In this document: positions 8,194-52,612 of the stretch, one piece after another
Layout of the letters: every line of letters begins with the position of its first letter
Position numbering within the stretch: the stretch's first letter is position 1
NCBI RefSeq assembly: GCF_019748365.1
Contig: NZ_JAIEPN010000004.1
Coordinates: 49,138-113,137, forward strand
Source: Novosphingobium sp.
Lineage (GTDB): Bacteria; Pseudomonadota; Alphaproteobacteria; Sphingomonadales; Sphingomonadaceae
Direction: 5' to 3'
DNA length: 64,000 nt
Notes under the pieces: model-generated
Databases searched by the model: none
What the model was told of the DNA's origin: nothing
The model's input: only the letters and a program-made list of their open reading frames with translations
Translations under genes and position numbers: made by a program

Positions 8194-8309
8194 GCGTTAC
8201 CCCGTTTATTGGTCTGGTTGATCTTGAAAGGGGCCTTGGCGGCCTGTTCTGTTCCCGCAACACCTTGCGGGATGTTCCCATTTACGCGGGACTGTGGCAC
8301 GAATGAGGC

Positions 8310-8918
8310 ATGTCGCCACGAAACTCCGACACCAGTTTCGCGCGCGGGCCGGGCCGGGCCGGGGGCAGACGGCAGAAAACCCAGCCACCTCCGCTGGATA
8401 AAGCTGCTCTCGATGCGCTGGCACTGACCTATGTTGCGCGATTTGCGACAAGTTCGGGGCGGCTGGCAGACTATCTCAAACGCAAACTGCGCGAGCGCGG
8501 CTGGGCGGAAGAGACCGCTCCGGACGTGGCCGCGGTCGTTTCCCGCATGGCCGAGCGCCGCTACCTCGATGATGCCGCCTTCTCCGCCGCGAAGGGCGAA
8601 AGCCTCAGGCGGCGGGGCTATGGCGCGCGGCGGATCGACGATACGCTCAGCCATGATGGCATTGCCGAGCCCTTGCGCGCCGCCGCGCGCGGCAGCGAGA
8701 CCGAGCGCCGCCATGCCGTCATGGCCTTTGCGCGGCGCAAGCGGTTCTGGCCTTATTCAGGTGAACCCTGTCTTGATCCTGCCCTGCGCCGCAAGCAACT
8801 CGCGGCCTATCTTCGCGCCGGACACGGGCTTGACCACGTACGCCGGGTGATGGATGCGCGGGACCTTGATGAACTCGAAGAATGGGCTGACGAACATGCC
8901 GAAGACGCTTTGGAATAG
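8310..8918 (+). CDS. recX: Regulatory protein RecX
   Basis: This 202-aa protein is built of RecX-type three-helix repeats: LTYVARFATSSGRLADYLKRKLRERG, then RMAERRYLDDAAFSAAKGESLRRRGYGARRI, then a third unit ending at the acidic C-terminus (LDELEEWADEHAEDALE). RecX modulates RecA filaments. The N-terminal about 35 residues are low-complexity and may be overextended. It overlaps the DUF192 gene by about 20 bp. Confidence 0.85.
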   Translation: MSPRNSDTSFARGPGRAGGRRQKTQPPPLDKAALDALALTYVARFATSSGRLADYLKRKLRERGWAEETAPDVAAVVSRMAERRYLDDAAFSAAKGESLRRRGYGARRIDDTLSHDGIAEPLRAAARGSETERRHAVMAFARRKRFWPYSGEPCLDPALRRKQLAAYLRAGHGLDHVRRVMDARDLDELEEWADEHAEDALE

Positions 8919-9411
8919 GGCCGCCGGCCTGGCGCTGGTGATTGCCGCCGTAGGCTGCTCGCCGCTCGGCGCCGGTTCGACCAGCGCGCAGGGTACGGTC
9001 ACCACGGCGCCCGCTGCGCAGTCGGCGGTCCATCCGGTCTCGGGCCTCAAGGTCGTGCCGCTGACTGTCACGACCGCTGGCGGGGCGCATGTGTTCAAGG
9101 TCGAAGTCGCCGCCAGCCCCGCCGAGCAGGAGCGCGGCCTGATGTTCCGCACCACGATGGGTGCGGACGAGGGGATGATCTTCCCGATGGATCCGCCGCG
9201 CCCCGCCGCGTTCTGGATGAAGAACACGGTGATCCCGCTCGACATCATCTTCGTCGGCGCGGACCACAAGGTGCTCAACATCGCTGCGAATGCGGTGCCC
9301 TATGATCTTTCGCCGCTGCCCTCGTTTGGCAATGCGGCGGGCGTGCTGGAGCTCATTGGCGGGCGCGCCGCGCAGATTGGCCTCAAACCGGGCGACACGG
9401 TCAACTGGTAG
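8896..9411 (+). CDS. DUF192 family exported lipoprotein
   Basis: Starting at ATG 8896 (15th codon of the tracked ORF) gives a signal peptide, KTLWNRAAGLALVIAAVGC, with a lipobox-like AVGC. The DUF192 core follows (LMFRTTMGADEGMIFPMDPPRPAAFWMKNT, VIPLDIIFVG, LELIGGRA). The family is small, periplasmic and of unknown function. It overlaps the end of recX. Confidence 0.85.
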   Translation: MPKTLWNRAAGLALVIAAVGCSPLGAGSTSAQGTVTTAPAAQSAVHPVSGLKVVPLTVTTAGGAHVFKVEVAASPAEQERGLMFRTTMGADEGMIFPMDPPRPAAFWMKNTVIPLDIIFVGADHKVLNIAANAVPYDLSPLPSFGNAAGVLELIGGRAAQIGLKPGDTVNW

Positions 9412-9624
9412 GCTTTTGTCCACTAACGCGGAAGGCGGCACCGGCCCGCCGAACCGGGCAATCTCGATATGTTCCCACGCCACGCCGCTACCCTGCGCAA
9501 GGGGCTTTGCTGTGCAGACTATGAAGGCAGGGCCTCAATGCAACCACTTATGCGGACACATCGTGCCGGAACGATGCATCCGCCGCTTGCATGGCCCCCC
9601 TCTGAGACGCTAAGCGCGCATGCC

Positions 9625-10038
9625 ATGAGCATCCTCGGCAAGATCTTCACCTGGTGGGACGGCGCCACTTTCGGCACCATGGTCGACAGCGCGCGCAATG
9701 GCGTGAAAGTCGGCCAGGACGCGCAAGGCAACACCTACTACCGCGCGCGCAAGCCCTATCCGAAGGGCCACCCCTTCGCCGGACGCGAACGGCGCTGGGT
9801 GATCTACAACGGCGCCAATGATGCCAGCCGCGTGCCCGCCGAATGGCACGGCTGGCTCCATGGCAATTTCGATGGCACGCCGGAAAGCAACCTTCCCCCG
9901 GCACGGATCTGGGAAGTGGACTTCACCCCCAACGCCACCGGCACTTCTGCCGCCTATCGCCCGCAGGGCGCGCTTGAGCGCGGCGGCAAGCGGGCCCGGG
10001 CTACGGGCGACTACGAAGCCTGGTCGCCCGAAGGCTGA
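9625..10038 (+). CDS. NDUFA12-like NADH:ubiquinone oxidoreductase accessory subunit
   Basis: ATG 9625 gives 137 aa beginning MSILGKIFTWWDGATFGTMV. It has the NDUFA12 hallmarks GNTYYR, RRWVIYNG, VPAEWHGWLHG and P(P)ARIW. This is the alphaproteobacterial homologue of the mitochondrial complex I 17.2-kDa subunit. Its last codons overlap the next start (TGATG), linking it to the DUF2155 gene. Confidence 0.92.
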   Translation: MSILGKIFTWWDGATFGTMVDSARNGVKVGQDAQGNTYYRARKPYPKGHPFAGRERRWVIYNGANDASRVPAEWHGWLHGNFDGTPESNLPPARIWEVDFTPNATGTSAAYRPQGALERGGKRARATGDYEAWSPEG

Positions 10039-11336: not shown

Positions 11337-11412
11337 AGGAGTGTAGCTCAGTTGGTAGAGCATCGGTCTCCAAAACCGAGGGCCGGGGGTTCGAGTCCCT
11401 CCACTCCTGCCA
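11337..11412 (+). tRNA. tRNA-Trp (anticodon CCA)
   Basis: The cloverleaf can be drawn by hand. The acceptor AGGAGTG pairs with CACTCCT, the D-arm contains AGCTCAGTTGGTAGAGC, and the anticodon stem is CGGTCTCCAAAACCG with CCA. The T-arm contains GTTCGAGTC. Discriminator G and an encoded CCA end at 11412. It lies upstream of secE in the usual bacterial order, but is now separated from it by the prophage, whose attL core overlaps the 3' end. Confidence 0.97.
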
Positions 11413-11413
11413 C
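11397..11413. other. attL core (17-bp repeat in tRNA-Trp 3' end)
   Basis: CCCTCCACTCCTGCCAC is identical to bases 52596-52612. It covers the T-arm/acceptor 3' half of tRNA-Trp, so integration leaves the tRNA intact at this end. Confidence 0.92.
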
Positions 11414-11442: not shown

Positions 11443-11487
11443 GGTTAGGGCTGGGTTAGACAATCAGCGCTTTGGACAGTTAGCCAA
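11443..11487. other. Candidate integrase arm-type sites, attL side
   Basis: Three related words lie between the att core and the integrase stop region: GGTTAGGGCT (11443), GGTTAGACAA (11454-11463) and AGTTAGCCAA (11478-11487). GGTTAGACAA recurs exactly at 52501 and GTTAGCCAA at 52554 on the attR side. This is what arm-binding sites of a tyrosine integrase look like; the assignment is inference. Confidence 0.5.
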
Positions 11488-12561
11488 ATCGAAGGCGATC
11501 ACCGGGGTAATGGCCTGCTCGGCCATGCGCTTTTGCTCCACGGCGGCGGTGTAGGTTGCGACCTGGCGGTCGGTGGTCCAGCCTCCCACCGCCTTCAATT
11601 CCTGATTGCTCGCGCCCGCTTCGGCCGCCCGGCGCGTGATCGCCTTGCGCAGGCCGTGGGCGCTGCAGTGGGGCAGGCCGGCATCGTCGCACCATTTGCG
11701 CATGCGCTGGCCGAGCCCGGCGCGGGTGAAGGGTTTGCCATAATCCGTCACCAGAAAGGTCTCGGTCCCCGTCACCGGCATCGCCTCGATCGCTTCCATG
11801 AGCTGCGGCGCGGCGGGCAGCCAGATGGTCTGCCCGGTGCTGTCCTTCGTCTTCGCCGGCGTCACCTCGATCATGCCGTCCTTCAGGTGCTTGCGCCCGA
11901 AGGTAGAGGCATCGCCCCGGCGCAGCGCGGTCCACAGGAAGATTTCGAGCGCGAGGCGCGGCTTGGTGCCCAGCGGGTGGTGGGCGCGATACTGCGCGAT
12001 CTCTGCCTCGGTCCATGTGTGGAAGCCGCCCTTGGGCACCGCGATCGATTCGGCCTGATCGACCGGGTTGGGCCGCTGCAGGCCAAGCAGCTTGATCGCA
12101 TAGTCGAAGAACGGCTTCATCTCGCCGCGCAGGTTGGCGGCGGCGCTCGGCCCGCCGATCGTGCGGCCCTTGGCATCGGTGCGCTTGGTTGCCGCGCGCA
12201 GCAGCAGGGCCTCGATATGGTCGAACCGGAAGTTCACGATCAGATCGTGCTGCACCTCGGCCACGAACTTTTCGAGGATCAGCCGCGCCGTGCGCGCCGT
12301 CGCCTCGCTCTTCCCGCCGAGGAAAGCCGCCGATGTGTAGTAGCGCGCGGCCACCCAGCCCACCGTTCCATGAGCATAGCGCGGCGCAGGCTCGGCCTTC
12401 GTGTTCGCAGCAAAGGCTGCCAGCTCGGTCTGCCCCTCCGGCGAGTTCGGATGCGCCTTGAAATAGGCCGAGCGCCCGGCATGGCGCCAGCGATAGTGGC
12501 GCTTGCCATGGCGATCGACAAACGAGCTGACGTAGGGCGGGAGCTTTTCTTTACGAGCCAT
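11464..12561 (-). CDS. int: Phage tyrosine integrase
   Basis: ATG 12561 (44th codon of the tracked ORF) starts RKEKLPPYVSSFVDRHGKRHYRWR, a typical N-terminal arm-binding region. The catalytic domain shows Arg I (WTALRRGD), HxxR (SAHGLRKA), a Trp in place of the third His (VGGWTTDRQ) and the Tyr nucleophile (VATYTAAVEQKR). The length is 365 aa. It is transcribed toward attL and ends 51 bp from the att core. It overlaps the upstream 64-aa gene by 11 bp. Confidence 0.93.
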   Translation of the reverse strand: MARKEKLPPYVSSFVDRHGKRHYRWRHAGRSAYFKAHPNSPEGQTELAAFAANTKAEPAPRYAHGTVGWVAARYYTSAAFLGGKSEATARTARLILEKFVAEVQHDLIVNFRFDHIEALLLRAATKRTDAKGRTIGGPSAAANLRGEMKPFFDYAIKLLGLQRPNPVDQAESIAVPKGGFHTWTEAEIAQYRAHHPLGTKPRLALEIFLWTALRRGDASTFGRKHLKDGMIEVTPAKTKDSTGQTIWLPAAPQLMEAIEAMPVTGTETFLVTDYGKPFTRAGLGQRMRKWCDDAGLPHCSAHGLRKAITRRAAEAGASNQELKAVGGWTTDRQVATYTAAVEQKRMAEQAITPVIAFDLANCPKR

Positions 12562-12745
12562 TCGGAAGGAAACGATCGAGCGGGTTGGCGGCGCCCGGTG
12601 CGGGGCCGTCCGATTCGCCGATGATGATCTCGATCCGCTGATTCGCCAAATCCAAGACGATCCGAGCCCGCTGAAATCCGGCTTCGGCAACGGCCTTGCA
12701 GGCGCGCGCCGTCTCGGCCTGCGGGATCATGGCCGGTTTCGTCAT
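12551..12745 (-). CDS. Hypothetical phage protein (64 aa) overlapping int
   Basis: This 64-aa protein reads TKPAMIPQAETARACKAVAEAGFQ, then LDLANQRIEIIIGESD. It is coupled to int (11-bp overlap) and to the upstream 60-aa gene (4-bp overlap). The position suits an excisionase or int regulator, but no helix-turn-helix can be recognised, so the function is unknown. Confidence 0.65.
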   Translation of the reverse strand: MTKPAMIPQAETARACKAVAEAGFQRARIVLDLANQRIEIIIGESDGPAPGAANPLDRFLPNGS

Positions 12746-22601: not shown

Positions 22602-22970
22602 TCAGGGGGGCGGCTCGTAAGGCGGGCTTGGCGCGAAGAGCTCGGGCTGCGCGGGATCAACCGGGCGCAGCATTTCGAGCACTTCCTGCCGGGTGGGGAC
22701 GCGCAGGGGCAGATCGACCTTGGGGTTCGGAATCGCGCTGGGGGTCAGGCCCCAGTCATAGTGCTCGCTGGCGCGCCATGCGTGGCCGCAAAACAGGTTT
22801 GAGCACTGATAGTAGATCTCGCGGTGCGTCGGCGTGATCTCGCGGCTCGTGCGGCGGCGGCCGACGCAGCCGCAATGCGGGCAGCGCAGCGCGCCGGATT
22901 TTCCGGGCTGATCGGAAATGTCAGCCGGGGTGTGCTCGGCGGGGATGAGGGCTTCGGCTGCCATGGTCAT
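22602..22970 (-). CDS. ogr: Ogr/Delta-type phage late transcription activator
   Basis: ATG 22970 gives 122 aa with the Ogr zinc finger LRCPHCGCVGRRRTSREITPTHREIYYQCSNLFCGHAW (Cys 30, 33, 56, 61), near-identical in pattern to P2 Ogr. Longer N- and C-terminal extensions make it larger than the roughly 72-aa P2 protein. Ogr proteins recruit RNA polymerase to phage late promoters. Three matching dyads (33526, 36790, 47339) sit in front of the late operons. It is coupled by a 4-bp overlap to the upstream CII-like gene. Confidence 0.9.
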   Translation of the reverse strand: MTMAAEALIPAEHTPADISDQPGKSGALRCPHCGCVGRRRTSREITPTHREIYYQCSNLFCGHAWRASEHYDWGLTPSAIPNPKVDLPLRVPTRQEVLEMLRPVDPAQPELFAPSPPYEPPP

Positions 22971-23419
22971 GCTTCCCCCACTTCGTGACGATCGAGCGCG
23001 GCAATGCCGTCCGTCAGGGCCTCGATCGCTTCCTCGGCCTCGCGGCGGGCGGCGCGGCGCTTCGCCGGGTCGCGGCAAGTCGCCGCTTCGATCAGGGCGC
23101 TGATCGCCTCTCCGCTTTCGCGCGCAGCATTGGCGGCGGCGAAGGCGAGATCGGCAGAGGTGCCATCGCGCGCGGCGAGTTCAAGCTGGGTGGTGAAGAC
23201 GCGGTGGAACGGGCCATGGTCCCCGCCGGCGGCGATGAAGGCGCCATCGAGCCGCAGCGCATCGATGATCGAAATCTCGCTGTCCGCATCGGGATCGGAC
23301 CACATGCGCACGAGCCGCTCGCTGCGGCCCACCAGCATGGCGCACTTGTCCCACCCGATGCGCGCCGCAATCACGGTGAGCGCGCGGTGGAAAGTGAGGG
23401 GCTCGCGGCGCTTGGTCAT
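22967..23419 (-). CDS. CII-like phage regulatory protein (CP76-type)
   Basis: From ATG 23419, 150 aa: TFHRALTVIAARIGWDKCAMLVGRSERLVRMWSDPDADSEISIIDALRLDGAFIAAGGDHGPFHRVF. This has the helix-turn-helix and C-terminal helical order of the phage CII/CP76 regulators. It lies between the Cro-like gene and the Ogr-like gene, with ATGA overlaps on both sides, in the first operon read from the early promoter. Confidence 0.7.
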   Translation of the reverse strand: MTKRREPLTFHRALTVIAARIGWDKCAMLVGRSERLVRMWSDPDADSEISIIDALRLDGAFIAAGGDHGPFHRVFTTQLELAARDGTSADLAFAAANAARESGEAISALIEAATCRDPAKRRAARREAEEAIEALTDGIAALDRHEVGEA

Positions 23420-23715
23420 GCTGCGCGGCCCTGCAAATCGCTGTTCCGATTGAAAGAGACGCGTTCGCCGCCCCGGTCTACGCCGTGCCATGCCGGGGGT
23501 GCAGCGGGCACCTCCACCGGATAGAGATCAGGACGCAGCAGATGCCGGGAAACACCATAGAGCTGTTCGCAGAGCAGCACCTTCTCACCGGGCAGGGTGC
23601 CGAGCCCCCTCATCCAGCGCGAGACGCTGGCTTGGGAAACCTTGATCCTGTCGGCCAGCGGAACCTGGCCACCGGCGCGCTTGGCGCATTCGGAAAGGGC
23701 ATCGGCGGGTGTCAT
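23416..23715 (-). CDS. Cro-like helix-turn-helix regulator (YdaS-like)
   Basis: From ATG 23715, 99 aa. The HTH is ALSECAKRAGGQVPLADRIKVSQASVSRWMRGLGTLPGEKVLLCEQLYGVS, which fits a YdaS/Cro-type repressor. It is divergent from the CI-type gene across an 85-bp operator region. A consensus promoter places the predicted transcription start at or next to the ATG (see promoter entry), so translation may be leaderless. Confidence 0.8.
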   Translation of the reverse strand: MTPADALSECAKRAGGQVPLADRIKVSQASVSRWMRGLGTLPGEKVLLCEQLYGVSRHLLRPDLYPVEVPAAPPAWHGVDRGGERVSFNRNSDLQGRAA

Positions 23716-23800: not shown

Positions 23801-24619
23801 ATGGTGAAGCTTCGCTCGATCACGGCCGTTCGCCTGCAGGAACGCATGGACGAGATAGGCGTCTCGCAGGATCAGCTTGCGGCTGCCATCGGCTGCACGC
23901 AGGCCACGATCAGCCGAATATTGACCGGCGCGTCCCAGAATTCGCGGTGGCTGCCCAAGATCGCAGTCAACCTTGCGGTCAATCTCAACTGGCTGATGGG
24001 GGTGACCGATCAGAAGATCGACATGGTCGACGTCGATGGCGAGCAGATCAGCGAGGATACGCTGGCCGCGATGCGCGCCGGCGTGATCGCGAACCGGCTG
24101 CAGCGGCCCGAGCAGCTCGGATCAGGAGCGGGCATCGAGGACAAGCGCCTCGGATTTCGTGGTTTCCCAAGCGAGGAGACGTTTGATCCCGCAGCGCAGG
24201 CTGCGGAGCTGGGCATGGTTGCCGTGCGCGAACTGAATCTCGCCTTCGGCATGGGCGCTACGTTCCTTGATGTGCCGGTGACCGAGCAGGTGCGCTATTT
24301 CCCGCGCGAATGGCTGCGCCAGTTTACCAAGGCCGCGCCGGAGCATCTGGCATGGGTGCAGGGCGTGGGCGATTCGATGGCGCCGACGCTGCTGGACAGC
24401 GATACGCTGCTGCTCGACCTTTCGAAGAAATCGCTCAGCATGTCCGATCAGATCTGGGCGCTCGCCTATTGCGGGCTCGGGATGGTCAAGCGGCTGCGGC
24501 CAACGCCGGACGGCGGCTTGCGGCTCCTGTCAGACAATCCCGCGGTGCCCGAAGAGACCTCGCACGATGGTGAGGTGCAACTGATCGGCCGGGTGGTGGC
24601 GTTCACGCGGAAACTGTGA
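23801..24619 (+). CDS. CI-type phage repressor with S24 (LexA-like) peptidase domain
   Basis: ATG 23801 or GTG 23804 is chosen over the tracked ATG 23762 because GGAGG lies at 23794-23798. The 272-aa protein has an N-terminal HTH (RMDEIGVSQDQLAAAIGCTQATISRILTG) and a C-terminal S24 domain with the Ser in VGDSMAPTL and the Lys in GLGMVKRL. Both catalytic residues are present, so RecA-stimulated self-cleavage and SOS induction are plausible. It heads a plus-strand operon that continues into the cargo genes. Confidence 0.9.
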   Translation: MVKLRSITAVRLQERMDEIGVSQDQLAAAIGCTQATISRILTGASQNSRWLPKIAVNLAVNLNWLMGVTDQKIDMVDVDGEQISEDTLAAMRAGVIANRLQRPEQLGSGAGIEDKRLGFRGFPSEETFDPAAQAAELGMVAVRELNLAFGMGATFLDVPVTEQVRYFPREWLRQFTKAAPEHLAWVQGVGDSMAPTLLDSDTLLLDLSKKSLSMSDQIWALAYCGLGMVKRLRPTPDGGLRLLSDNPAVPEETSHDGEVQLIGRVVAFTRKL

Positions 24620-24626
24620 GGGTATC

Positions 24627-24974
24627 GTGATTATCCTAGTCGCTGCGCTAGCAACGTCGCCACTGGATAGCTGCATAGCAGCGGTGCGAACTGATTTGTC
24701 CAACGCCATGATGGCATGCGCCGCCCCGAAACCTGAACTCGTGCCGGGAGCCGATCCGACAGACCCGTCTAGCTATCGCGCACGAGAAGACCTTTCGCAG
24801 GCTTGTGCCGATGCGATGCGGGCGGGGGAAATGGCTGGCAGGTTTGGGCCGCGGCTGCCCTCGACCGCCCGGGAGGGGTTTATTCGCCAGTTCGAGCAGA
24901 AACTCGCCCTGTGCCGAAATCCTGACTTAACGAAGGCTGTCCCAGTTCTGAAAACCACTAATCTGTGGGATTGA
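24627..24974 (+). CDS. Hypothetical exported protein (115 aa), first cargo gene
   Basis: The start is GTG 24627, 7 bp after the repressor stop. The protein begins IILVAALATSPLDSCIAAVRTDLSNAMMACAAPKPELVPG, which reads as a short signal-like hydrophobic segment, and it has several Cys. A Phe/Glu-rich helix follows. No family is recognised. It is the first of five plus-strand genes behind the repressor, so it is likely transcribed in the lysogen. Confidence 0.65.
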   Translation: MIILVAALATSPLDSCIAAVRTDLSNAMMACAAPKPELVPGADPTDPSSYRAREDLSQACADAMRAGEMAGRFGPRLPSTAREGFIRQFEQKLALCRNPDLTKAVPVLKTTNLWD

Positions 24975-25006
24975 ATAGATGAGCAGCCAATTGCCAAGGG
25001 GGACGA

Positions 25007-25744
25007 ATGGCTGGTTTTCTTGATCGCCTCGCCGCTGCCGTCGCGGGCAAGGCCGTGCCGGTGCCCATGCCCGCATGGGTGCAGCCGAGCGTGCCGGACG
25101 TCGAGGAAATCATCGCGGCCAAGGAGCGCGATGCCAGCTCGAGCTATGCCGGGTTCATCCGCTACACCGATGCCGATGGGGTGATGACCGCGCGGCGCAT
25201 CGTGTGCCGATCGATCACGGGCTATGGACGGCCCGAGACTGTCACCGCCTGGTGCTGCGAGCGCAAGGCAATGCGGTCCTTCAAGATCGAGCGGATCAGC
25301 GAACTAGTCTGCCTTGAAACCGGCGAGGTGCTGGATCCGGCGGGGCATTTCGATCAGCTTTGGATGCACGGCGCGCTGAAGGTGGCTGACAAGGCGCTCA
25401 ACGATTTCGGTCGGGTTCTGGCCTTCATGGCGCGCTGCGATGGCTCGGTGCACCCGCTGGAGGCAGACAGCATCGAGCATTCGCTGGAACGCTACATCGT
25501 CCGGTTTGGCGGCGATGATCGCATGCTGGGAAGTGCGCTGGCGAACATCGGCAAGATCGCGCCCGATGGCGATGATCTGGTCATCTCGCTCGGGCGGCTT
25601 GTCCGCCATGCCGAAGCACGCAAGCTTGCCCGCCTCCTGCTCGATTGTGTGGGCGAGGTGACCGCTGCCGATGGCCGCTATGCGCCGAGCGAGATCGAAT
25701 GGGCCGAGGTGGTGACCGAGGGCCTGAAGGAAACGGCACGGTGA
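25007..25744 (+). CDS. WYL-like/TerB-like two-domain protein
   Basis: This 245-aa protein has two parts. Residues about 45-115 (FIRYTDADGVMTARRIVCRSITGYGRPETVTAWCCERKAMRSFKIERISELVCLETGEVL) have the Sm-like WYL pattern, including the RKAMRSFKIERI ligand strand. The C-terminal half (FMARCDGSVHPLEADSIEHSL...EARKLARLLLDCVGEVTAADGRYAPSEIEWAEVV) looks like a TerB-type helical domain with conserved acidic residues. WYL domains sense nucleotides or nucleic acid; TerB is linked to phage inhibition and stress. It is a likely lysogenic-conversion or defence gene. Confidence 0.65.
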   Translation: MAGFLDRLAAAVAGKAVPVPMPAWVQPSVPDVEEIIAAKERDASSSYAGFIRYTDADGVMTARRIVCRSITGYGRPETVTAWCCERKAMRSFKIERISELVCLETGEVLDPAGHFDQLWMHGALKVADKALNDFGRVLAFMARCDGSVHPLEADSIEHSLERYIVRFGGDDRMLGSALANIGKIAPDGDDLVISLGRLVRHAEARKLARLLLDCVGEVTAADGRYAPSEIEWAEVVTEGLKETAR

Positions 25745-25772
25745 GCCGCGCGGCTCATGCCTGAGGGAAATC

Positions 25773-26291
25773 ATGCGCAAAGTTCTGATCGTACTCGCAG
25801 CCGTGGTGCTGGTGGTTGGCCTGTGGTTCTATGCCTCGCCCAGTCTGGCGCTCAACGGGCTGAAGGAAGCCGCGCTTGCCGGTGATCGCGATGCGTTGGA
25901 GCAAAAGGTCGATTTCCCCTCGGTCCGCGATTCGCTGAAGAGCCAGTTCAAGGCGAAGATGGTTGCCGAGATGGCCAAGGACGAAAACGCCGAGAACGGC
26001 TTTGCGACGCTCGGCATGATGATCGGCTTTGCCATGGTCGACCAGATGATCGACGGCATTGTCAGCCCCGATGGCATGAAGGCGATGATCAGGAACGGGC
26101 GCTTCACCAAACCGGGCGAGGCCGGTGCCGAACCGGCCAAGCCGACAGAGTGGATCATCGAGCGCGACGGCCTCGACAAGTTCAGGGCACGGCCCAAAGG
26201 CGAGCCTGCCGACAAGGTGCCGATGCTGGTGTTCAAGCGCGATGGCTTGGGCTGGCGGCTGAAGTCGATCGATCTTGTGGAAGGATCCTGA
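25773..26291 (+). CDS. DUF2939-like membrane-anchored protein (172 aa)
   Basis: This protein starts with one transmembrane helix (VLIVLAAVVLVVGLWFYASPSLALNGLKEAALAGDRDALEQKVDFPSVRDSLKSQF), which is the typical opening of DUF2939 proteins. A periplasmic domain ends GLGWRLKSIDLVEGS. It is probably anchored in the inner membrane. It lies 28 bp after the WYL/TerB gene and 1 bp before the next gene, so all are one transcript. Confidence 0.75.
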   Translation: MRKVLIVLAAVVLVVGLWFYASPSLALNGLKEAALAGDRDALEQKVDFPSVRDSLKSQFKAKMVAEMAKDENAENGFATLGMMIGFAMVDQMIDGIVSPDGMKAMIRNGRFTKPGEAGAEPAKPTEWIIERDGLDKFRARPKGEPADKVPMLVFKRDGLGWRLKSIDLVEGS

Positions 26292-26292
26292 G

Positions 26293-26535
26293 ATGCATCG
26301 CCGCATGTTCCTCGCCGGGCTGTTGGCACTCGCGGCGAGTGGGGCCCCGGTGGATGCGCTGGCCGGAAGCAAACCCAAGCGCCGCCGGCGGATTCGCGGG
26401 ATGAGCGGGGGCGCAGGCGCGCGCGGCACCGCAGATGATGGGAAGTGCCCCTGCAACGGGGGCAAGGTCTGCGTGGGGCCGCGCGGCGGGCGCTATTGCA
26501 TCACGAGCAGCGGCGGAAAGAGGTACGGGGTTTAG
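26293..26535 (+). CDS. Small exported basic protein with GPRGGRY motif (80 aa)
   Basis: ATG 26293 gives a signal peptide (HRRMFLAGLLALAASGAPVDALAG), a basic linker (KPKRRRRIRG) and a Cys-rich end (CPCNGGKVCVGPRGGRYCITSSGGKRYGV). The GPRGGRY plus GKRY pattern resembles the small basic adaptor module seen at the ends of phage and virus nucleases and structural proteins. No catalytic domain is present. It could coat DNA or the cell envelope; this is inference. Confidence 0.65.
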   Translation: MHRRMFLAGLLALAASGAPVDALAGSKPKRRRRIRGMSGGAGARGTADDGKCPCNGGKVCVGPRGGRYCITSSGGKRYGV

Positions 26536-26608
26536 CGCATGACGGCGGTAACGCGCCTCCGGTTTGCCTGTGATGAGGCGGCTCTACCTTGTCGCAGGAG
26601 TCGAGCCC

Positions 26609-26731
26609 ATGCCCTGGAATATCATCCCCAAGATCGTTGAGTTGTTCGTTCGCGCCGAGAAGCCGGGCCACGCGCTGGCTGCCCTCCTCATCATCATGAT
26701 CAGCGTGACAGCGATGTATGCCTTGCGTTGA
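26609..26731 (+). CDS. 40-aa single-span membrane protein, absent from ORF track
   Basis: ATG 26609 has AGGAG 8 bp upstream. The product reads PWNIIPKIVELFVRAEKPGHALAALLIIMISVTAMYALR and stops at 26731: one amphipathic helix and one transmembrane helix. It closes the cargo cassette and converges with gene D (stop at 26734). The size and shape recall holin-like or toxin-like small membrane peptides, but no function can be assigned. Confidence 0.6.
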   Translation: MPWNIIPKIVELFVRAEKPGHALAALLIIMISVTAMYALR

Positions 26732-26733
26732 CG

Positions 26734-27765
26734 CTAAATCGCCACTTCCATCGACACCCGCGTCTTCAGGCCGCTGCCGTCCATCGTGTGTTCGGCGCTG
26801 GCGATCTGCCAGCCTTGCGCATCGATGTGGGGGCGGAAGCCCACCGCCGCGATTCGCGTGCCGGGGGTGAGCAGGGGGTTGCCCCATGCGAGCGAGGCTT
26901 CCAGCGTGGCGCTGGCGCGCTGCAGGCGGCTTGTTTCAGACCGGGCGGCGGTCCGCGCATCTTCCTCGCTGGCGTAGATGCCCTTCAGTCGTTTCTTGCG
27001 CTCGCCGCCGGTGGCGACGGTCTTGCGCTTTCCGGCCTCGGGATCGTGCCACTGGGCTTCGGCGCCGTCCTGATCCTTGTCGCGGCTCGCGCGGCGCCAG
27101 CTCACGCTCTCGCACGCGCTGCGGGTGAGGGTGGCGGCGGGCATGGCCTTGCCGGTGGCGGTGGTGGCGGCGCTGCGCGGGGCGAAGATGAGCGCGCCGC
27201 CCTTGACCGTGGCGGTGGCATCGTGAAGCCGCCCGAGATCGCGCAGAAACTGCATGTCAGACTTGTTGTGCTGTTCGGCCACGCCCACCGCGCGGCCTGC
27301 CAGATCGGGATGGCAGCGCGGGGTAAGCGCATTGTCCCCCGCGAGCTTGCCGATCACCGCGCCCACCGTCTCACCCACCCAGGTGCGCGTCTTGCGGGTG
27401 CGGAAGGTGCCTTTCATGTCCGCGCTGCGGGCCGTGATGGTGACGGTATCGGGCGGGCCTTCCCAGCTCACTTCGTCCACCGTGAAGCTGCCCTTCTCGA
27501 CCAGCCCCACGGCCACCGGCGTGCCGCGATCCCAGCCCAGCGCCACGGTGATCGTCGCGCCCTGTGGCGGCGGAGCGAACAGGCCATCGGAATCGTCGAC
27601 CGCGATCTCCAGTTCGTCCGCCTCCTCGCCCAGCTTCTCCGAAAGGCGCAGCGAGCGCAGACGCGGGGCATAGGCGGCGGTGAGGTCCTGCCCGTCCAGC
27701 GTCACCCGCCACGCGGCACGGGGCTGCACATAGGCGGCGGTGAGGTCCGGCAGGCTGGCCATCAA
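26734..27765 (-). CDS. D: Phage late control protein D (tail, P2 gpD)
   Basis: This 343-aa protein has the gpD pattern: LRSLRLSEKLGEEADELEIAVDDSDGLFAPPPQGATITVALGW, AEQHNKSDMQFLRDLGRLHDATATVKGGALIFAP. gpD forms the baseplate hub and spike collar of P2-type tails, structurally like T4 gp27. It is the last gene of the V-to-D operon and overlaps gene U by 4 bp. Confidence 0.93.
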   Translation of the reverse strand: MMASLPDLTAAYVQPRAAWRVTLDGQDLTAAYAPRLRSLRLSEKLGEEADELEIAVDDSDGLFAPPPQGATITVALGWDRGTPVAVGLVEKGSFTVDEVSWEGPPDTVTITARSADMKGTFRTRKTRTWVGETVGAVIGKLAGDNALTPRCHPDLAGRAVGVAEQHNKSDMQFLRDLGRLHDATATVKGGALIFAPRSAATTATGKAMPAATLTRSACESVSWRRASRDKDQDGAEAQWHDPEAGKRKTVATGGERKKRLKGIYASEEDARTAARSETSRLQRASATLEASLAWGNPLLTPGTRIAAVGFRPHIDAQGWQIASAEHTMDGSGLKTRVSMEVAI

Positions 27766-36816: not shown

Positions 36817-36896
36817 CGCACGGTGGCGGGGGCAGCCGCAGGGCGGCGATGCAGGGGCGCAACGCCGCCCGACGCGCGGCTCATCAGGAGCATGCC

Positions 36897-39230
36897 TTGC
36901 CAAAACCCGTCGAAAACCTGACCGGCGCGGATGCGACGGCCTTCCAGCAAGCGCTTACCCCGTTCGTGAGCGCGATCGTCGATAACGAGGACATCCCCGC
37001 AATCACTGCGGCGGTCGCGCAGGCCGAGGCGGCTGCTGCGAATGTGAACAACGGGGTAGCGGCAGCGGCAGACAGCGCCAACACGGCAAGCCTTGCCGCC
37101 TCGGCCATGCTCGGCATCAACCGCGTCTTCACCACCACCGCGCTCGGTATCGCAGGGACGACGAACGGGCAGGGCTTCGTGGTGATCCCGGCGACGGGCG
37201 CGACCTCGGCAATCCACTACTACAACCAGTCCGGCGTGGCGGCAGCCAGCGGGTTCCAGTTCGCGAGCGAGGCCACCCGCATCGCGTTCAACGTGATCAT
37301 CACCACGAGCGTCACGAACAGCGGCAACGCCTATTCGGCAACTGCGGCGGGGCTTGGCACGCTCGCGGCGGGCCAGCGCGTCAAGATCGTGCCCTCGGCC
37401 ACCAATACCGGCGTTGTGACCCTCGCGCTCAATGGCGGATCGGCGCGCACCGTGGCCGATGCCAAGGGGCAAGCCCTGCAGGCGGGCACGTTCGAGGCGG
37501 GGCAGGATTACGAGCTGGTTTACACCGGCACGCAGTGGCGGCTGCATTGGGCCATCCGGCAGCAATTCTTCGAAGTCACGGCGCGCAGCCGGCTGTTCCT
37601 CGGCACTGCCGGTCTCGTCTCGCTTTCGGCCAGTGCCAATGGCGAGCTGATCGTCACGAGTTCGCTGAACGGCGTTGCCACCGAACTCGCCCGTTTCGAC
37701 TTTGCGACGGGTTTCCTGCGTGTCGTCAACGGGCTGCGCATTGGCGCCACGGCGGGTTCTGGGGTCGATGTCTACTGGCGGAACAACCCGCAGCCGTTCA
37801 TCCCCGGATTGGCCAACTCGGACGCTCTTGGCGAGACGGCGGCGTTCACGCAGTCCATCGAGCGGCCCGATGACAGCGATCCGGTCATGATCGGCTCGAC
37901 CAAGCCATACTGCGTTACCGCATTCGATCTCGGCCGCACGATCATGGTGACGGCCGCCGGCGCGACGATTGACCTGCAGAAATGGACCGATGGGCAGTCG
38001 ATCAAGATTGCGACCAGCGCGGCCTGCACGCTCTATTCCGGGCCGGACAAGACCTGGTTCGGGCAAAGCTCGACCAACCGCAACATGGCGCTGCCGGCGA
38101 ACAGCATCGTCACGGTGACGCGGGTGGGAACCGTGCTGTTTTACGAGACGGCGGCCGGCATCACCTTCAACGCCGCTGCGCAGGCCGCGCGCGACATTTC
38201 CATCGCCGCGATCGGGCAGTCGCTCGCCGCCTATTTCATCGAGCACGCGGGGGTGGGCGGCTATCAGGCGCAGCAGGCGCTGCTCGCCGGATCGAGCGCA
38301 GCGTGGCCTGCTGCGGGATGGGACGCCTCCCGTTCCTCGATCTGGCCGATCAATGCGGCCCTCGGCGCTTCCGCGCTGCTCGAGGCGAACAATCCCTCGA
38401 ACTTCTGGTGGACGACTGCGGGCGGGCCGGGACCGCGCGCGACCGAGGCAGTGACCAAGATCAATGAGGCGGTGGCGCTGGGCCAGCCCATGCCCGCGCT
38501 GCTGCACTGGGTGCAGGGAGAGGGAGATCGCGCTGGCCTGGCGGCGGGCACAACCACCTTTACCCAGTATCGCAACGCGCAGGTCGCCCTCTTCAACTGG
38601 CTGCGGTCCCAGCTTTCGCGGCCCAATCTGCCGATCGTGATCTCGCCGCTCGGCGCGGACGATACCAACGCCATCGCGCGCGGTGCCTACATCGCCATCC
38701 GCGAGGCGCAGGTCTGGGTCTGCGGGCAGCTTTCGAACGTGAGCCTCGCGCCCGAGAAGTACGACTTGCCCCGCAAGTACACAGACGTCCACCTGACCTA
38801 CAAGGGGACCGGCATGATGGGCGCGCGGCTTGCGCTGGCAGCCGGGAACATCCTGAGCGGGCAGAACAACAACCTTGGCCCGGCGATCCAGAGCTTCGTC
38901 GGCGGTTCATTCACGCACACGATCACGTTCAGCGGAACCGCGCAGCCGGATCGCCCCGGCGCCAGCACGAACCCCGGCCAGCCCCCCGTTGGCTTCGTTC
39001 TGCGCTCTCCGGGCGATCCGGTAACGGCGACCTACTACACGATCCCGAGCTACGGCTATGCATGGTCGACCAATGGCAACGGCAACCCCGTTCTGACGCT
39101 GACCACGCTTGAGGACGCAACCGGGTGCGTCCTCGCCTACCCCGGCACCTCGCTTCAGGACGTCCGCACCCGCCGCATCGTGCGCGGGCTCTTTTCGCCG
39201 TTCCTGCCGCTTCGCACGTGGGGAGGGTAA
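36897..39230 (+). CDS. Tail fibre/receptor-binding protein with SGNH (sialate-O-acetylesterase-like) domain
   Basis: Start TTG 36897 has AGGAG 6 bp upstream; the tracked start at 36312 is antisense to J. The 777-aa protein begins with an oligomerising helical region, then beta-rich fibre. The catalytic region starts AIGQSLAAYF (block I Ser) and has HWVQGEGD (the QGE oxyanion motif) and DVHLTYKGTGMMGARLA (Asp/His). This is the SASA/CE6-type SGNH esterase pattern. It probably removes O-acetyl groups from cell-surface polysaccharide during adsorption. It is co-transcribed with the endolysin. Confidence 0.75.
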   Translation: MPKPVENLTGADATAFQQALTPFVSAIVDNEDIPAITAAVAQAEAAAANVNNGVAAAADSANTASLAASAMLGINRVFTTTALGIAGTTNGQGFVVIPATGATSAIHYYNQSGVAAASGFQFASEATRIAFNVIITTSVTNSGNAYSATAAGLGTLAAGQRVKIVPSATNTGVVTLALNGGSARTVADAKGQALQAGTFEAGQDYELVYTGTQWRLHWAIRQQFFEVTARSRLFLGTAGLVSLSASANGELIVTSSLNGVATELARFDFATGFLRVVNGLRIGATAGSGVDVYWRNNPQPFIPGLANSDALGETAAFTQSIERPDDSDPVMIGSTKPYCVTAFDLGRTIMVTAAGATIDLQKWTDGQSIKIATSAACTLYSGPDKTWFGQSSTNRNMALPANSIVTVTRVGTVLFYETAAGITFNAAAQAARDISIAAIGQSLAAYFIEHAGVGGYQAQQALLAGSSAAWPAAGWDASRSSIWPINAALGASALLEANNPSNFWWTTAGGPGPRATEAVTKINEAVALGQPMPALLHWVQGEGDRAGLAAGTTTFTQYRNAQVALFNWLRSQLSRPNLPIVISPLGADDTNAIARGAYIAIREAQVWVCGQLSNVSLAPEKYDLPRKYTDVHLTYKGTGMMGARLALAAGNILSGQNNNLGPAIQSFVGGSFTHTITFSGTAQPDRPGASTNPGQPPVGFVLRSPGDPVTATYYTIPSYGYAWSTNGNGNPVLTLTTLEDATGCVLAYPGTSLQDVRTRRIVRGLFSPFLPLRTWGG

Positions 39231-39235
39231 GCGCC

Positions 39236-39724
39236 ATGGCACCCGAACCACGCTGGCTCACCATCGCGCGCGGCCATATCGGCGTGCGCGAGATTCCGGG
39301 GCCGCGCCATAGCCCGACCATCATGGGCTGGCTGCGCAGGCTCGGCTCGTGGATCAAGGATGACGAGGCAGCCTGGTGCGGCACGTTCGTGGCCGCCGTG
39401 ATGCAGGAAGCGGGGCTGCCAGTGCCGAAGTATCACATGCGCGCGCGGGCATGGGCGGACTGGGGCGCGAACCTGCGCGAGAGCGTGGTGGCGCCGGGCG
39501 CGGTGCTGGTCTTCGCGCGCGAGGGCGGCGGGCACGTGGGCTTTTACGTGGGCGAGGATCCCGCAGCCTATCATGTGCTGGGCGGCAATCAGGGCAATGC
39601 CGTTTCCATCGTGCGGATCTCCAAGGCGCGCTGCATCGCCATCCGCTGGCCGCGCGGCGAGCCGGTGCTGGGGCGCCCGGTGCTGCTGGCGGCGAGCGGC
39701 GAAACTTCGAAAAACGAGGCGTGA
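39236..39724 (+). CDS. Phage endolysin, TIGR02594-type (NlpC/P60/CHAP-like cysteine peptidase)
   Basis: ATG 39236 gives 162 aa: PRWLTIARGHIGVREIPGPRHSPTIMGWLRRLG, then the nucleophile in AWCGTFVAAVMQEAGLP, His in GGHVGFYVGE and Asn in GGNQGN. These are the Cys-His-Asn triad and order of the TIGR02594 cell-wall hydrolases. It lies 5 bp behind the esterase fibre gene, displaced from the lysis cluster (holin-like genes are at 43 kb). Confidence 0.85.
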   Translation: MAPEPRWLTIARGHIGVREIPGPRHSPTIMGWLRRLGSWIKDDEAAWCGTFVAAVMQEAGLPVPKYHMRARAWADWGANLRESVVAPGAVLVFAREGGGHVGFYVGEDPAAYHVLGGNQGNAVSIVRISKARCIAIRWPRGEPVLGRPVLLAASGETSKNEA

Positions 39725-39736
39725 AAAGGACTTCGC

Positions 39737-41356
39737 ATGACTGAGGCTGTAAAGCTCAATGAAGGCACCGGCGGCGCGAGCATCGTCGTCGACGAATTGG
39801 AAACGCTCAACGGCGAGCCTGTTCCTTCCGAGACGACGCCGCCTACCGGTCCGGTTGTCCAGCGCATGAAGGTCGGCTTCGGCCCGGATGGCGCGCTGAG
39901 AGACGTGGATGCCGACAACCCGCTGCCGATTGCGGGCGCTGTCACCATCTCGGGCGTGGCGACGGCAAGTAAGCAGGACACGGGCAACTCCATCCTCGAC
40001 GCGATCCTGGCCGCGCTGCAGAGCACCCTGGGCATCGGCGGTGCCGTCACGGTCTCCAATCTTCCAGCGACACAGCCGGTGAGCGGGCCCTTGACCAATG
40101 CAGAGCTTCGCGCCTCTGCCGTGCCGGTTTCGGGAACGGTCGACGTTTCAGGCTCGGTCGCTGTCACCGGCACTTTCTGGCAAGCCACCCAGCCAATCAG
40201 CGCAGCAAGCCTTCCTTTGCCCACGGGCGCAGCGACAGCCGCATTGCAGACCACGGGCAACGCCACGCTGACAAGCATCCTGACGGCTCTCGGCTCTCCG
40301 CTGCAGGCAGGCGGATCGGTAAGCATCGCGGGTACGGTGGATGTCTCGGCCGCAAGCCTGCCCCTGCCCACCGGTGCGGCCACGGCGGCCAATCAGACGA
40401 CCGGCAACACCTCGCTCGCCAACCTCGATACGGACGTGGGCGCGATCGACGCCACTCCCGCTGCGGCGGACGGCACCGGCAATTACAGCCTCGTGGCGGC
40501 GGCCAAGCGCGCGCTGCTCAACTGGGCCAACCTGCTTGCGATCCTGCCATCCTCGCTTGGCCAGAAGACGATGGCGGGCAGCTTGTCGGTTGCGCTGGCG
40601 AGCGATCAGTCTGTCGTTCCCGTCGCGCTGCCCAACATGACGCCGTTCACTTACAACGGTTCAGGCCCCATCCCGATCAATACCGACTTGATCGTGGTCG
40701 ATTGCCGAGGTTTTGCGGCGGTGTCGATCCACTGTGTTTCCATGGGCACAAGCGGCGTCGCCACCTTCGCGTGGTCGAATGACGCCACGAACTATTCAAG
40801 TGGCAACGTAATCGCTTCGAGCGGCAATCCCGCTGGTTCAATCAATGCCGCAGGTTTGTTCAACACGCCGGTTTTTGCCCGCTACCTTCGGGTCCGGCTC
40901 ACCACCGCAACAACCGGCGGGACCACGACGTTTGCGGTCCATGGGATGGTGCAGCCGGGCAACCTGCCAACCATTAACCAGCAAGTCTTGCTTACGTCAG
41001 GCAGCTTCACCTTTGGCAACCTTGTCCGCGTCAACGGCTTCACCGACAGCAGCACACCACTCAGCAGCGCGGGCGTTTTCACCGGCACAGGCCGCGTCAC
41101 GACCAACGCTAACTATCCATGGTTTTGCGCAAGGGCTTTTGCCGATCAGGCGGGCACGCTGTTTATCGAATGTTCGGTGGACAGCGGCACCACGTATCGC
41201 GTTGCAGACAGCATTGCCTTGGCAGCCGGCGAAACCAAGAGCCTTGCCGTTCGAGCAACCGGCGCTGCGGGCACGGCCACGCTCTACCGCGTGCGCTATG
41301 TCAACGGCGGCAGCGCGCAGGGCGCGTTCCAGCTCAGTTCCATGTTCCACGCGTGA
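39737..41356 (+). CDS. Phage structural/adhesin-like protein with LPLPTGAAT repeats
   Basis: This 539-aa protein is rich in Thr, Ser, Gly and Ala. It carries two near-identical blocks (AASLPLPTGAATAALQTTGN and AASLPLPTGAATAANQTTGN), several VSGTVDVSGSV-type beta repeats and a beta-rich C-terminal half (TFAWSNDATNYSSGNVIAS, YLRVRLTTATTGGTTTFAVHG). This is the composition of a virion decoration, tail needle or adhesin protein. It is not a gene of canonical P2. Confidence 0.7.
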   Translation: MTEAVKLNEGTGGASIVVDELETLNGEPVPSETTPPTGPVVQRMKVGFGPDGALRDVDADNPLPIAGAVTISGVATASKQDTGNSILDAILAALQSTLGIGGAVTVSNLPATQPVSGPLTNAELRASAVPVSGTVDVSGSVAVTGTFWQATQPISAASLPLPTGAATAALQTTGNATLTSILTALGSPLQAGGSVSIAGTVDVSAASLPLPTGAATAANQTTGNTSLANLDTDVGAIDATPAAADGTGNYSLVAAAKRALLNWANLLAILPSSLGQKTMAGSLSVALASDQSVVPVALPNMTPFTYNGSGPIPINTDLIVVDCRGFAAVSIHCVSMGTSGVATFAWSNDATNYSSGNVIASSGNPAGSINAAGLFNTPVFARYLRVRLTTATTGGTTTFAVHGMVQPGNLPTINQQVLLTSGSFTFGNLVRVNGFTDSSTPLSSAGVFTGTGRVTTNANYPWFCARAFADQAGTLFIECSVDSGTTYRVADSIALAAGETKSLAVRATGAAGTATLYRVRYVNGGSAQGAFQLSSMFHA

Positions 41357-41364
41357 GGCCCGCC

Positions 41365-41523
41365 ATGTCCAAGCCCCCGACCTGCAATCCGAACATCGCG
41401 CACATAACCGCAGAGGATGGCACTGTATTTCAGGTGCTCAACGAAGCGGGCGACGACTACGACGAAGCTGCCACGCGCGCCGAATACGAGGCATGGCTGG
41501 CAGAGCAGGACGGCGGCGCATGA
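41365..41523 (+). CDS. Small acidic phage protein (52 aa)
   Basis: From ATG 41365: SKPPTCNPNIAHITAEDGTVFQVLNEAGDDYDEAATRAEYEAWLAEQDGGA. Its stop overlaps the next start (ATGA). It is co-transcribed with the adhesin-like gene; function unknown. Confidence 0.6.
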   Translation: MSKPPTCNPNIAHITAEDGTVFQVLNEAGDDYDEAATRAEYEAWLAEQDGGA

Positions 41524-41720
41524 GCCTGCTGACGCTGTTTCAGCTCAATCTGGTCGCGGTGAGCGTGCCGGTGACGGTGTTGCCCCAGCATGCCTACACC
41601 GCGACAGGCCGGGAGCGCGCCAGCACGGCGACACCGCGTCAACGCGCGGACAAGGCAAAAAGGCGCAATCGCAGTTTTGCCGCTACCAGTCGTCGCCGCG
41701 CTTTCACTGCAGGACATTGA
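41520..41720 (+). CDS. Small basic phage protein with N-terminal hydrophobic segment (66 aa)
   Basis: From ATG 41520 a 66-aa protein: SLLTLFQLNLVAVSVPVTVLPQHAYTATGRERASTATPRQRADKAKRRNRSFAATSRRRAFTAGH. The N-terminus is hydrophobic, the rest very basic. Coupled by ATGA to the 52-aa gene. The function is unknown; a lysis or DNA-binding role are both possible. Confidence 0.55.
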   Translation: MSLLTLFQLNLVAVSVPVTVLPQHAYTATGRERASTATPRQRADKAKRRNRSFAATSRRRAFTAGH

Positions 41721-41723
41721 GAT

Positions 41724-41996
41724 ATGAGCATCACATTGCAGAACATGCTCCCGGGTGCAGATATCCGCTATTCGCTGGACATGACGCCGATGCTGCCGGA
41801 GGGCGCAACCTTGACAGCAGCGGCGATCACGATGCGGCTTGGCGAAGATCGCGCGAGGGTGACGGCGAGCGTCCAGGGCACGAAAGCGATCGTGCGCGTG
41901 GAAGCTCGCGAGCTCGGTCCGGTGTCGTTCGATGTGATCGGCGTATTCAGCGACGGCCAGAAGGATGGCGAAACGATCCGCGTCCAGATCGTTTGA
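41724..41996 (+). CDS. Hypothetical small beta-sandwich-like phage protein (90 aa)
   Basis: This 90-aa protein (SITLQNMLPGADIRYSLDMTPMLPEGATLTAAAITMRLGEDRARVTASVQGTKAIVRVEARELGPVSFDVIGVFSDG) has the alternating strand pattern of an immunoglobulin-like fold. It is last in the plus-strand late module and converges on gene S 13 bp away. The function is unknown. Confidence 0.65.
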   Translation: MSITLQNMLPGADIRYSLDMTPMLPEGATLTAAAITMRLGEDRARVTASVQGTKAIVRVEARELGPVSFDVIGVFSDGQKDGETIRVQIV

Positions 41997-52595: not shown

Positions 52596-52612
52596 CCCTC
52601 CACTCCTGCCAC
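52596..52612. other. attR core (17-bp repeat)
   Basis: CCCTCCACTCCTGCCAC identical to 11397-11413. Sequence on either side differs, so the repeat is exactly 17 bp. It marks the right end of the prophage. The residual tRNA-Trp fragment here has no acceptor 5' half. Confidence 0.92.

Follow-up and report, generated by a model that had tools for sequence, protein, structure and literature searches.

The window, the whole stretch of 64,000 nucleotides analysed here, lies on a contig of 113 kb in a genome of 4.5 Mb whose sampled relatives are Sphingomonas-like and contains a P2-like prophage of 41.2 kb (about 11397-52612), which is inserted in tRNA-Trp and bounded by a 17-bp direct repeat (Table 1). 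In the control region, ogr, a CP76-like gene and a Cro/YdaS-like gene lie on the minus strand and the S24-type CI repressor gene on the plus strand. The late operon of the prophage is on the minus strand and extends as far as gene D, and further plus-strand ORFs are located in the tail region (36849-41996) and at the terminase (47411-49318). Five ORFs follow CI on its own strand in the order anticipated by the original prediction, all of them being present at 24627-26731, and the block ends 2 bp before the convergent gene D. The genes had also been described as running against all neighbouring lytic genes, which holds for the neighbours on both sides, encoded on the minus strand, but not for the tail-region ORFs and the terminase, which are on the plus strand.

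Table 1. Features of the prophage and of the interval between CI and D (window coordinates; L numbers designate the loci compared)
Feature	Position	Strand	Evidence
Attachment-site core, tRNA-Trp 3' end (tRNA 11337-11412, ARAGORN)	11397..11413	+	Perfect 17-bp direct repeat CCCTCCACTCCTGCCAC
Integrase-like gene	11464-12690		Beside tRNA-Trp attachment core
Ogr/Delta zinc finger late activator	22602..22970	-	Pfam 9.4e-14
Cro / YdaS-like regulator, divergent from CI	23416..23700	-	Pfam YdaS_toxin 5e-9; PHROG transcriptional repressor
CI-type repressor, HTH + S24 peptidase	23804..24619	+	Pfam Peptidase_S24 2.3e-13, HTH_3; PHROG 4; GDSM, MVKR motifs
Exchangeable slot, CI stop to D stop	24623..26732	.	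Alignment with L205 DNA breaks off at 24622 and is back at 26733; 91 slots surveyed
115-aa probable exported protein, four Cys, GTG start	24627..24974	+	Homologues in matching slot of other prophages; aligned conserved Cys, C-terminal TTNLWD
WYL/TerB protein, 245 aa: HTH-less WYL (about 45-105) and TerB-like all-helical domain (about 125-240)	25007..25744	+	Profiles, model
DUF2939 protein, 172 aa, N-terminal membrane/export helix	25773..26291	+	Pfam 1.8e-25; PADLOC PDC-S55 3.2e-42
GPRGGRY protein, 80 aa, exported, basic, C-terminal GPRGGRY	26293..26535	+	phrog_2459 4e-9; homologues of 56-58% identity in the L120 and L128 slots
Tiny single-TM protein, 40 aa from ATG (55 aa from upstream TTG)	26609..26731	+	No homologue found
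Right slot border: late gene D (tail / late control protein)	26734..27762	-	PHROG 52 tail protein 1.6e-107; homologues annotated 'late control D'
Second attachment-site repeat	52596..52612	+	Perfect 17-bp copy of 11397..11413

A purine-rich stretch was observed 5' of each of the five ORFs. The 115-aa ORF had a poor codon-use score and is regarded as a real gene because homologues exist in other prophages. NCBIfam returned no name for the cassette genes except for a weak match of the 80-aa protein. The DUF2939 protein was aligned along its full length with the PADLOC model PDC-S55, a phage-defence candidate (residues 1-168 on model positions 1-178 of 182, E=3.2e-42); its predicted structure had a pLDDT of 80, and the structure search returned weak NTF2-like matches only, which were set aside. 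No mention of DUF2939 was found in the literature searched. The GPRGGRY protein and the Excalibur proteins of related slots apparently have a basic exported leader in common, followed by different C-terminal modules (window 26293-26535, L181:10566-10883 and L205:8716-8994).

Since the genes are arranged head to tail on the CI strand and the terminator scan revealed no terminator-like site on the plus strand, read-through from the CI promoter is expected. A sigma-70-like promoter was not found, but the sigma-70 consensus is not very informative for this group of hosts. In the lysogen, the five genes would be transcribed together with CI from the repressor promoter; judging from their export and membrane features and their position, they may have a role in superinfection exclusion.

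The interval between CI and D in related prophages

The closest relative found, the prophage at L205, encodes a D protein 80% and a CI repressor 85% identical to those of the window. The two DNA sequences are 80-86% identical up to position 24622 and again from 26733, and the intervening 2.1 kb of the window has no counterpart in L205, where two different small genes and none of the five occur. The edges of the five-gene block match this homology break within a few bases, which argues that the block is not a product of chance. At L213 CI and D are 6 bp apart, and the slot can therefore be empty.

To compare this interval across relatives, a survey anchored on D was carried out. It covered 66 viral contigs together with 30 D matches, the latter coming from 22 of the 150 relative genomes, and CI, Cro and D were located in each locus. 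This procedure yielded 91 CI-to-D slots, or 85 after removal of obvious duplicates, some near-identical slots remaining. The surveyed loci have the order ogr-CP76-Cro / CI-cargo-D, and CI and D flank all 91 slots, whose size ranges from 6 bp to 7.8 kb. The slot ORFs of 50 aa or more (258 in total, 203 of them on the CI strand) fell into 162 families including 135 singletons, as compared with 516 ORFs in 105 families in the flanks of the same loci. The borders of the slot are thus constant and its contents turn over as whole blocks.

The families recurring in the slots were WYL/TerB (19), HIRAN (17), the 115-aa protein (8), DUF2939 (8), an SNase-like exported protein (8) and an exported Excalibur protein (5). 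Relatives of the GPRGGRY protein were detected in L120 and L128 and, at weaker similarity, in L147 and L175, and no homologue of the 40-aa membrane ORF was found anywhere else in the 91-slot survey. Searches of viral contigs with the single DUF2939, GPRGGRY and 115-aa proteins gave no matches because one-protein patterns find close kin only; homologues of all three were later found in whole genomes and in the D-anchored survey. The HIRAN protein (Pfam 5e-11) stands first behind CI in 16 of its 17 slots, at a distance of 20-33 bp from the CI stop in nearly every case (L151:11667-12083, L158, L159, L160, L165, L179-L190 and others), and mutual exclusion between WYL/TerB and HIRAN was not significant (p=0.10).

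The common strand, short gaps and constant borders of the five genes could be taken as the marks of one dedicated defence system, in which a WYL/TerB sensor and membrane effectors work only as a set. The WYL/TerB gene adjoins genes for membrane proteins, and its product carries a fused N-terminal membrane part in L061 and L064. However, the exact five-gene set occurs nowhere else among the 91 slots. The 115-aa and DUF2939 genes recur as a pair in L119 and the GPRGGRY and DUF2939 genes in L120; DUF2939, 115-aa and GPRGGRY genes are found without WYL/TerB in L119, L120, L122, L123 and L128, and WYL/TerB is found without the other window cargo in nearly all its slots, as in L059, where it is accompanied by one unrelated small ORF. 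A single system of this kind is therefore very improbable, and the fixed five-gene arrangement was rejected, as its members turn up elsewhere only one or two at a time.

Recognised anti-phage systems occupy the CI-D slot in related prophages. We found a type IIG restriction enzyme in L149 (4e-261), IetS at L141:9233-12747 (5e-245; the upstream 308-aa neighbour matches no PADLOC model), DRT4/6 reverse transcriptases directly downstream of WYL/TerB at L068:5192-6964 and L071:5637-7214 (7e-170), 'beta' in L173 (5e-86), the PDC-M66A/B pair in L188, an ImmA-like protein matching capP/RmrA in L142 and a caspase-like protein in L122. In the Halomonas phage vB_HboP_4908 (L239, PQ368759.1) an Eco29kI endonuclease and its methylase are located at 8039-9891, between D and a LexA-type repressor. 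PADLOC matches were also obtained in the flanking control (methylases, PDC-M41B, PDC-M30B); the difference in defence content between slots and flanks is qualitative and no statistical enrichment is claimed.

Since other members of the group fill the slot with known anti-phage systems, the five genes are probably involved in host-cell protection. We consider it likely that they represent the current content of an exchangeable cargo slot between CI and D, expressed in the lysogen and probably directed against phages. The cargo would then protect the lysogen, and hence the prophage, from other phages by lysogenic conversion or superinfection exclusion. Of the repressor-linked defence or superinfection-exclusion module originally proposed, the position and the defence character, the latter indicated by the related slots and by PDC-S55, were supported. 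The idea that the five genes form one module was not, since the set is unique among the 91 slots, its members recur singly or in pairs and L205 has none of them. A search for the WYL/TerB protein and its neighbours in other genomes, suggested at the outset, showed that the contexts of the homologues are not random: all but one of the five genes have counterparts in the CI-D slot elsewhere.

The same genes might instead bring about a lysogenic conversion unrelated to phages, the exported, membrane and stress proteins aiding the host under envelope or DNA stress. Several slots hold non-defence genes, among them the apparently metabolic slot of L014, where a glycoside hydrolase-like exported protein (about 393 aa) and a LacI-type regulator lie side by side (6655-7836 and 7999-9036). 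DUF2939 and WYL/TerB also have chromosomal or island relatives (L125, L127, L037-L042), and TerB families are tied to stress resistance. However, the recurrence of known anti-phage systems in the CI-D slot and the status of DUF2939 as a PADLOC defence candidate speak against this explanation, which we regard as possible but rather unlikely. Returning to an anti-phage cargo, the DUF2939, 115-aa, GPRGGRY and tiny TM proteins might act at the envelope independently of WYL/TerB, a proposal much less certain than the protective role of the cargo as a whole.

The WYL/TerB protein

Both domains of the WYL/TerB protein scored below the Pfam gathering thresholds when the single sequence was used (E=0.0076 for WYL and 0.0035 for TerB), and both were confirmed by profiles against solved structures (PafBC, 2e-6, and PG_1108, 2e-4). 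The AlphaFold model, with a mean pLDDT of 93 and a pTM of 0.89, consists of a small beta-barrel and, C-terminal to it, a helical bundle. The barrel had BrxR, PafBC, ssDNA-bound CapW and DriD as structural neighbours and the bundle matched PG1108 (2h5n, TM 0.56 by target). No N-terminal HTH was detected by Pfam or in the model, where one short helix and a loop precede the barrel, and the protein by itself is therefore no BrxR/PafBC-type transcription factor.

Single-stranded DNA is bound by DriD, CapW and PafBC, and defence systems accompany BrxR and CapW. The window protein has the WYL fold of BrxR, CapW, PafBC and DriD as well as their conserved arginine positions, but differs from them in having neither the N-terminal HTH nor the WCX domain, TerB following instead. 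A full-length alignment of 30 WYL/TerB sequences showed Y53, R63, C83, F92, D145, E152, D222 and E229 to be invariant. The arginines R93 and R96 of the consensus FRxDR occur in 28 of the 30 rows each, the window protein having K93 and R96, and align with R201 and R204 of PafC, the conserved WYL pair of PafBC. Loss of this pair in both subunits of PafBC abolishes ssDNA binding, and single-subunit mutants revealed that the PafB pair is needed for binding and the PafC pair is dispensable (PMC11804915). With the stress-related Ter systems the protein has in common the all-helical TerB fold and the conserved acidic residues D145, E152, D222 and E229. It differs from those systems in its genetic linkage, the partner being a phage repressor or, for the chromosomal copies, recN and nrdB, and no match to terC/terD/terZ-type genes was found among the neighbouring window genes scanned. 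A single sentence of Makarova et al. 2014 (PMC4012209) mentions WYL-TerB fusions. WYL/TerB or WYL alone also occurs fused behind N-terminal TM segments, at L061:7305-8732, L064:3572-4717 (WYL/TerB) and L025:9754-10614.

In the P2-like slots the WYL/TerB gene is always on the CI strand, being the first ORF in 12 of 19 slots and the second in 6. In other prophages it lies directly behind CI in L019 (with a gap of 2 bp), L017, L065 and L074, and it faces CI in L026. The annotated phages searched for WYL/TerB gave no match. Chromosomal WYL/TerB genes directly follow recN in L037, L039 and L041 (in the last case as recN - WYL/TerB - ligA with overlapping ends); in L040 and L042 they lie behind nrdB, and in L085 and L088 they are divergent from alaS. 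These neighbours make up a setting of DNA repair and dNTP metabolism. LexA boxes of the GTTC-N7-GTTC type were not found near WYL/TerB, either in the window or near its chromosomal kin.

The WYL/TerB protein had at first been described as being of a nucleotide-sensing type, which is plausible; the best-supported ligand for the WYL fold is ssDNA. A putative role in ssDNA or DNA-damage sensing is preferred because of the chromosomal recN, nrdB and alaS contexts and the linkage to CI, and the conserved arginine pair also suggests such a sensor. The WYL domain might sense ssDNA or a related nucleic-acid signal arising from phage replication or DNA damage and the TerB domain might relay the signal, both steps being much less certain than the transcription of the cargo with CI.

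The linkage to CI could also mean that WYL/TerB is a partner of the repressor, tuning prophage induction as a sensor of ssDNA or DNA damage, and that the remaining slot genes are unrelated cargo. The constant strand and leading position of the gene, its place directly behind CI in the four other prophages and its kin at recN, nrdB and alaS are all in line with this explanation, as is the HIRAN protein, another DNA-binding domain, coming first in 16 of 17 other slots. However, L205, with its 85% identical CI, and most slots lack WYL/TerB, which is therefore not obligatory for CI, and the first place behind CI may simply be the best for expression in the lysogen. We thus regard a dedicated CI partner as unlikely and retain the interpretation of WYL/TerB as one component of an exchangeable cargo.

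On a broader and more tentative level, the HTH-less WYL/TerB proteins could be ssDNA or DNA-damage sensors coupled to damage control both in hosts, through recN, nrdB and alaS, and in prophages, through CI. In the prophages they would join the sensing of damage or foreign replication to lysogeny or defence, a role possibly filled by HIRAN in other prophages of the group. The HTH-less WYL family is linked in its gene contexts to prophage repressors and to host DNA-repair operons.

Comparison with known exclusion genes and hotspots

Lambda rex, P2 old/tin and P22 sie, the classical exclusion genes of lysogens, are non-essential, are expressed in the lysogen and block other phages. No sequence match between these genes and the cargo was found in the libraries searched. 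The CI-D interval of P2-like prophages is a place to look for anti-phage genes, since dozens of these slots hold uncharacterised genes beside recognised systems. DUF2939 (PDC-S55), the 115-aa four-cysteine protein and WYL/TerB represent concrete, small and testable candidates.

Anti-phage hotspots have been described in P2-like phages of E. coli between gpA and gpQ, in P4-like satellites and in P2-related Vibrio phages from cI to the integrase (Rousset et al. 2022, PMC9122126). The slot analysed here resembles them in being a small locus (about 1-5 kb) between two conserved phage genes, with high turnover and a mixture of known and unknown defence genes, and shares with the Vibrio hotspot its start at the cI repressor. 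Conserved flanks, turnover and known systems in homologous loci were all observed for the window slot. It differs from the E. coli P2 hotspot in lying between CI and D instead of gpA and gpQ, and from all these hotspots in its different gene families and in where it occurs, namely in prophages of Sphingomonadales and in at least one phage of Halomonas. No description of the CI-D slot with its gene families was found in the literature searched. The interval between CI and D thus appears to be a new position for a hotspot of anti-phage and lysogenic-conversion genes whose kind is itself already known.
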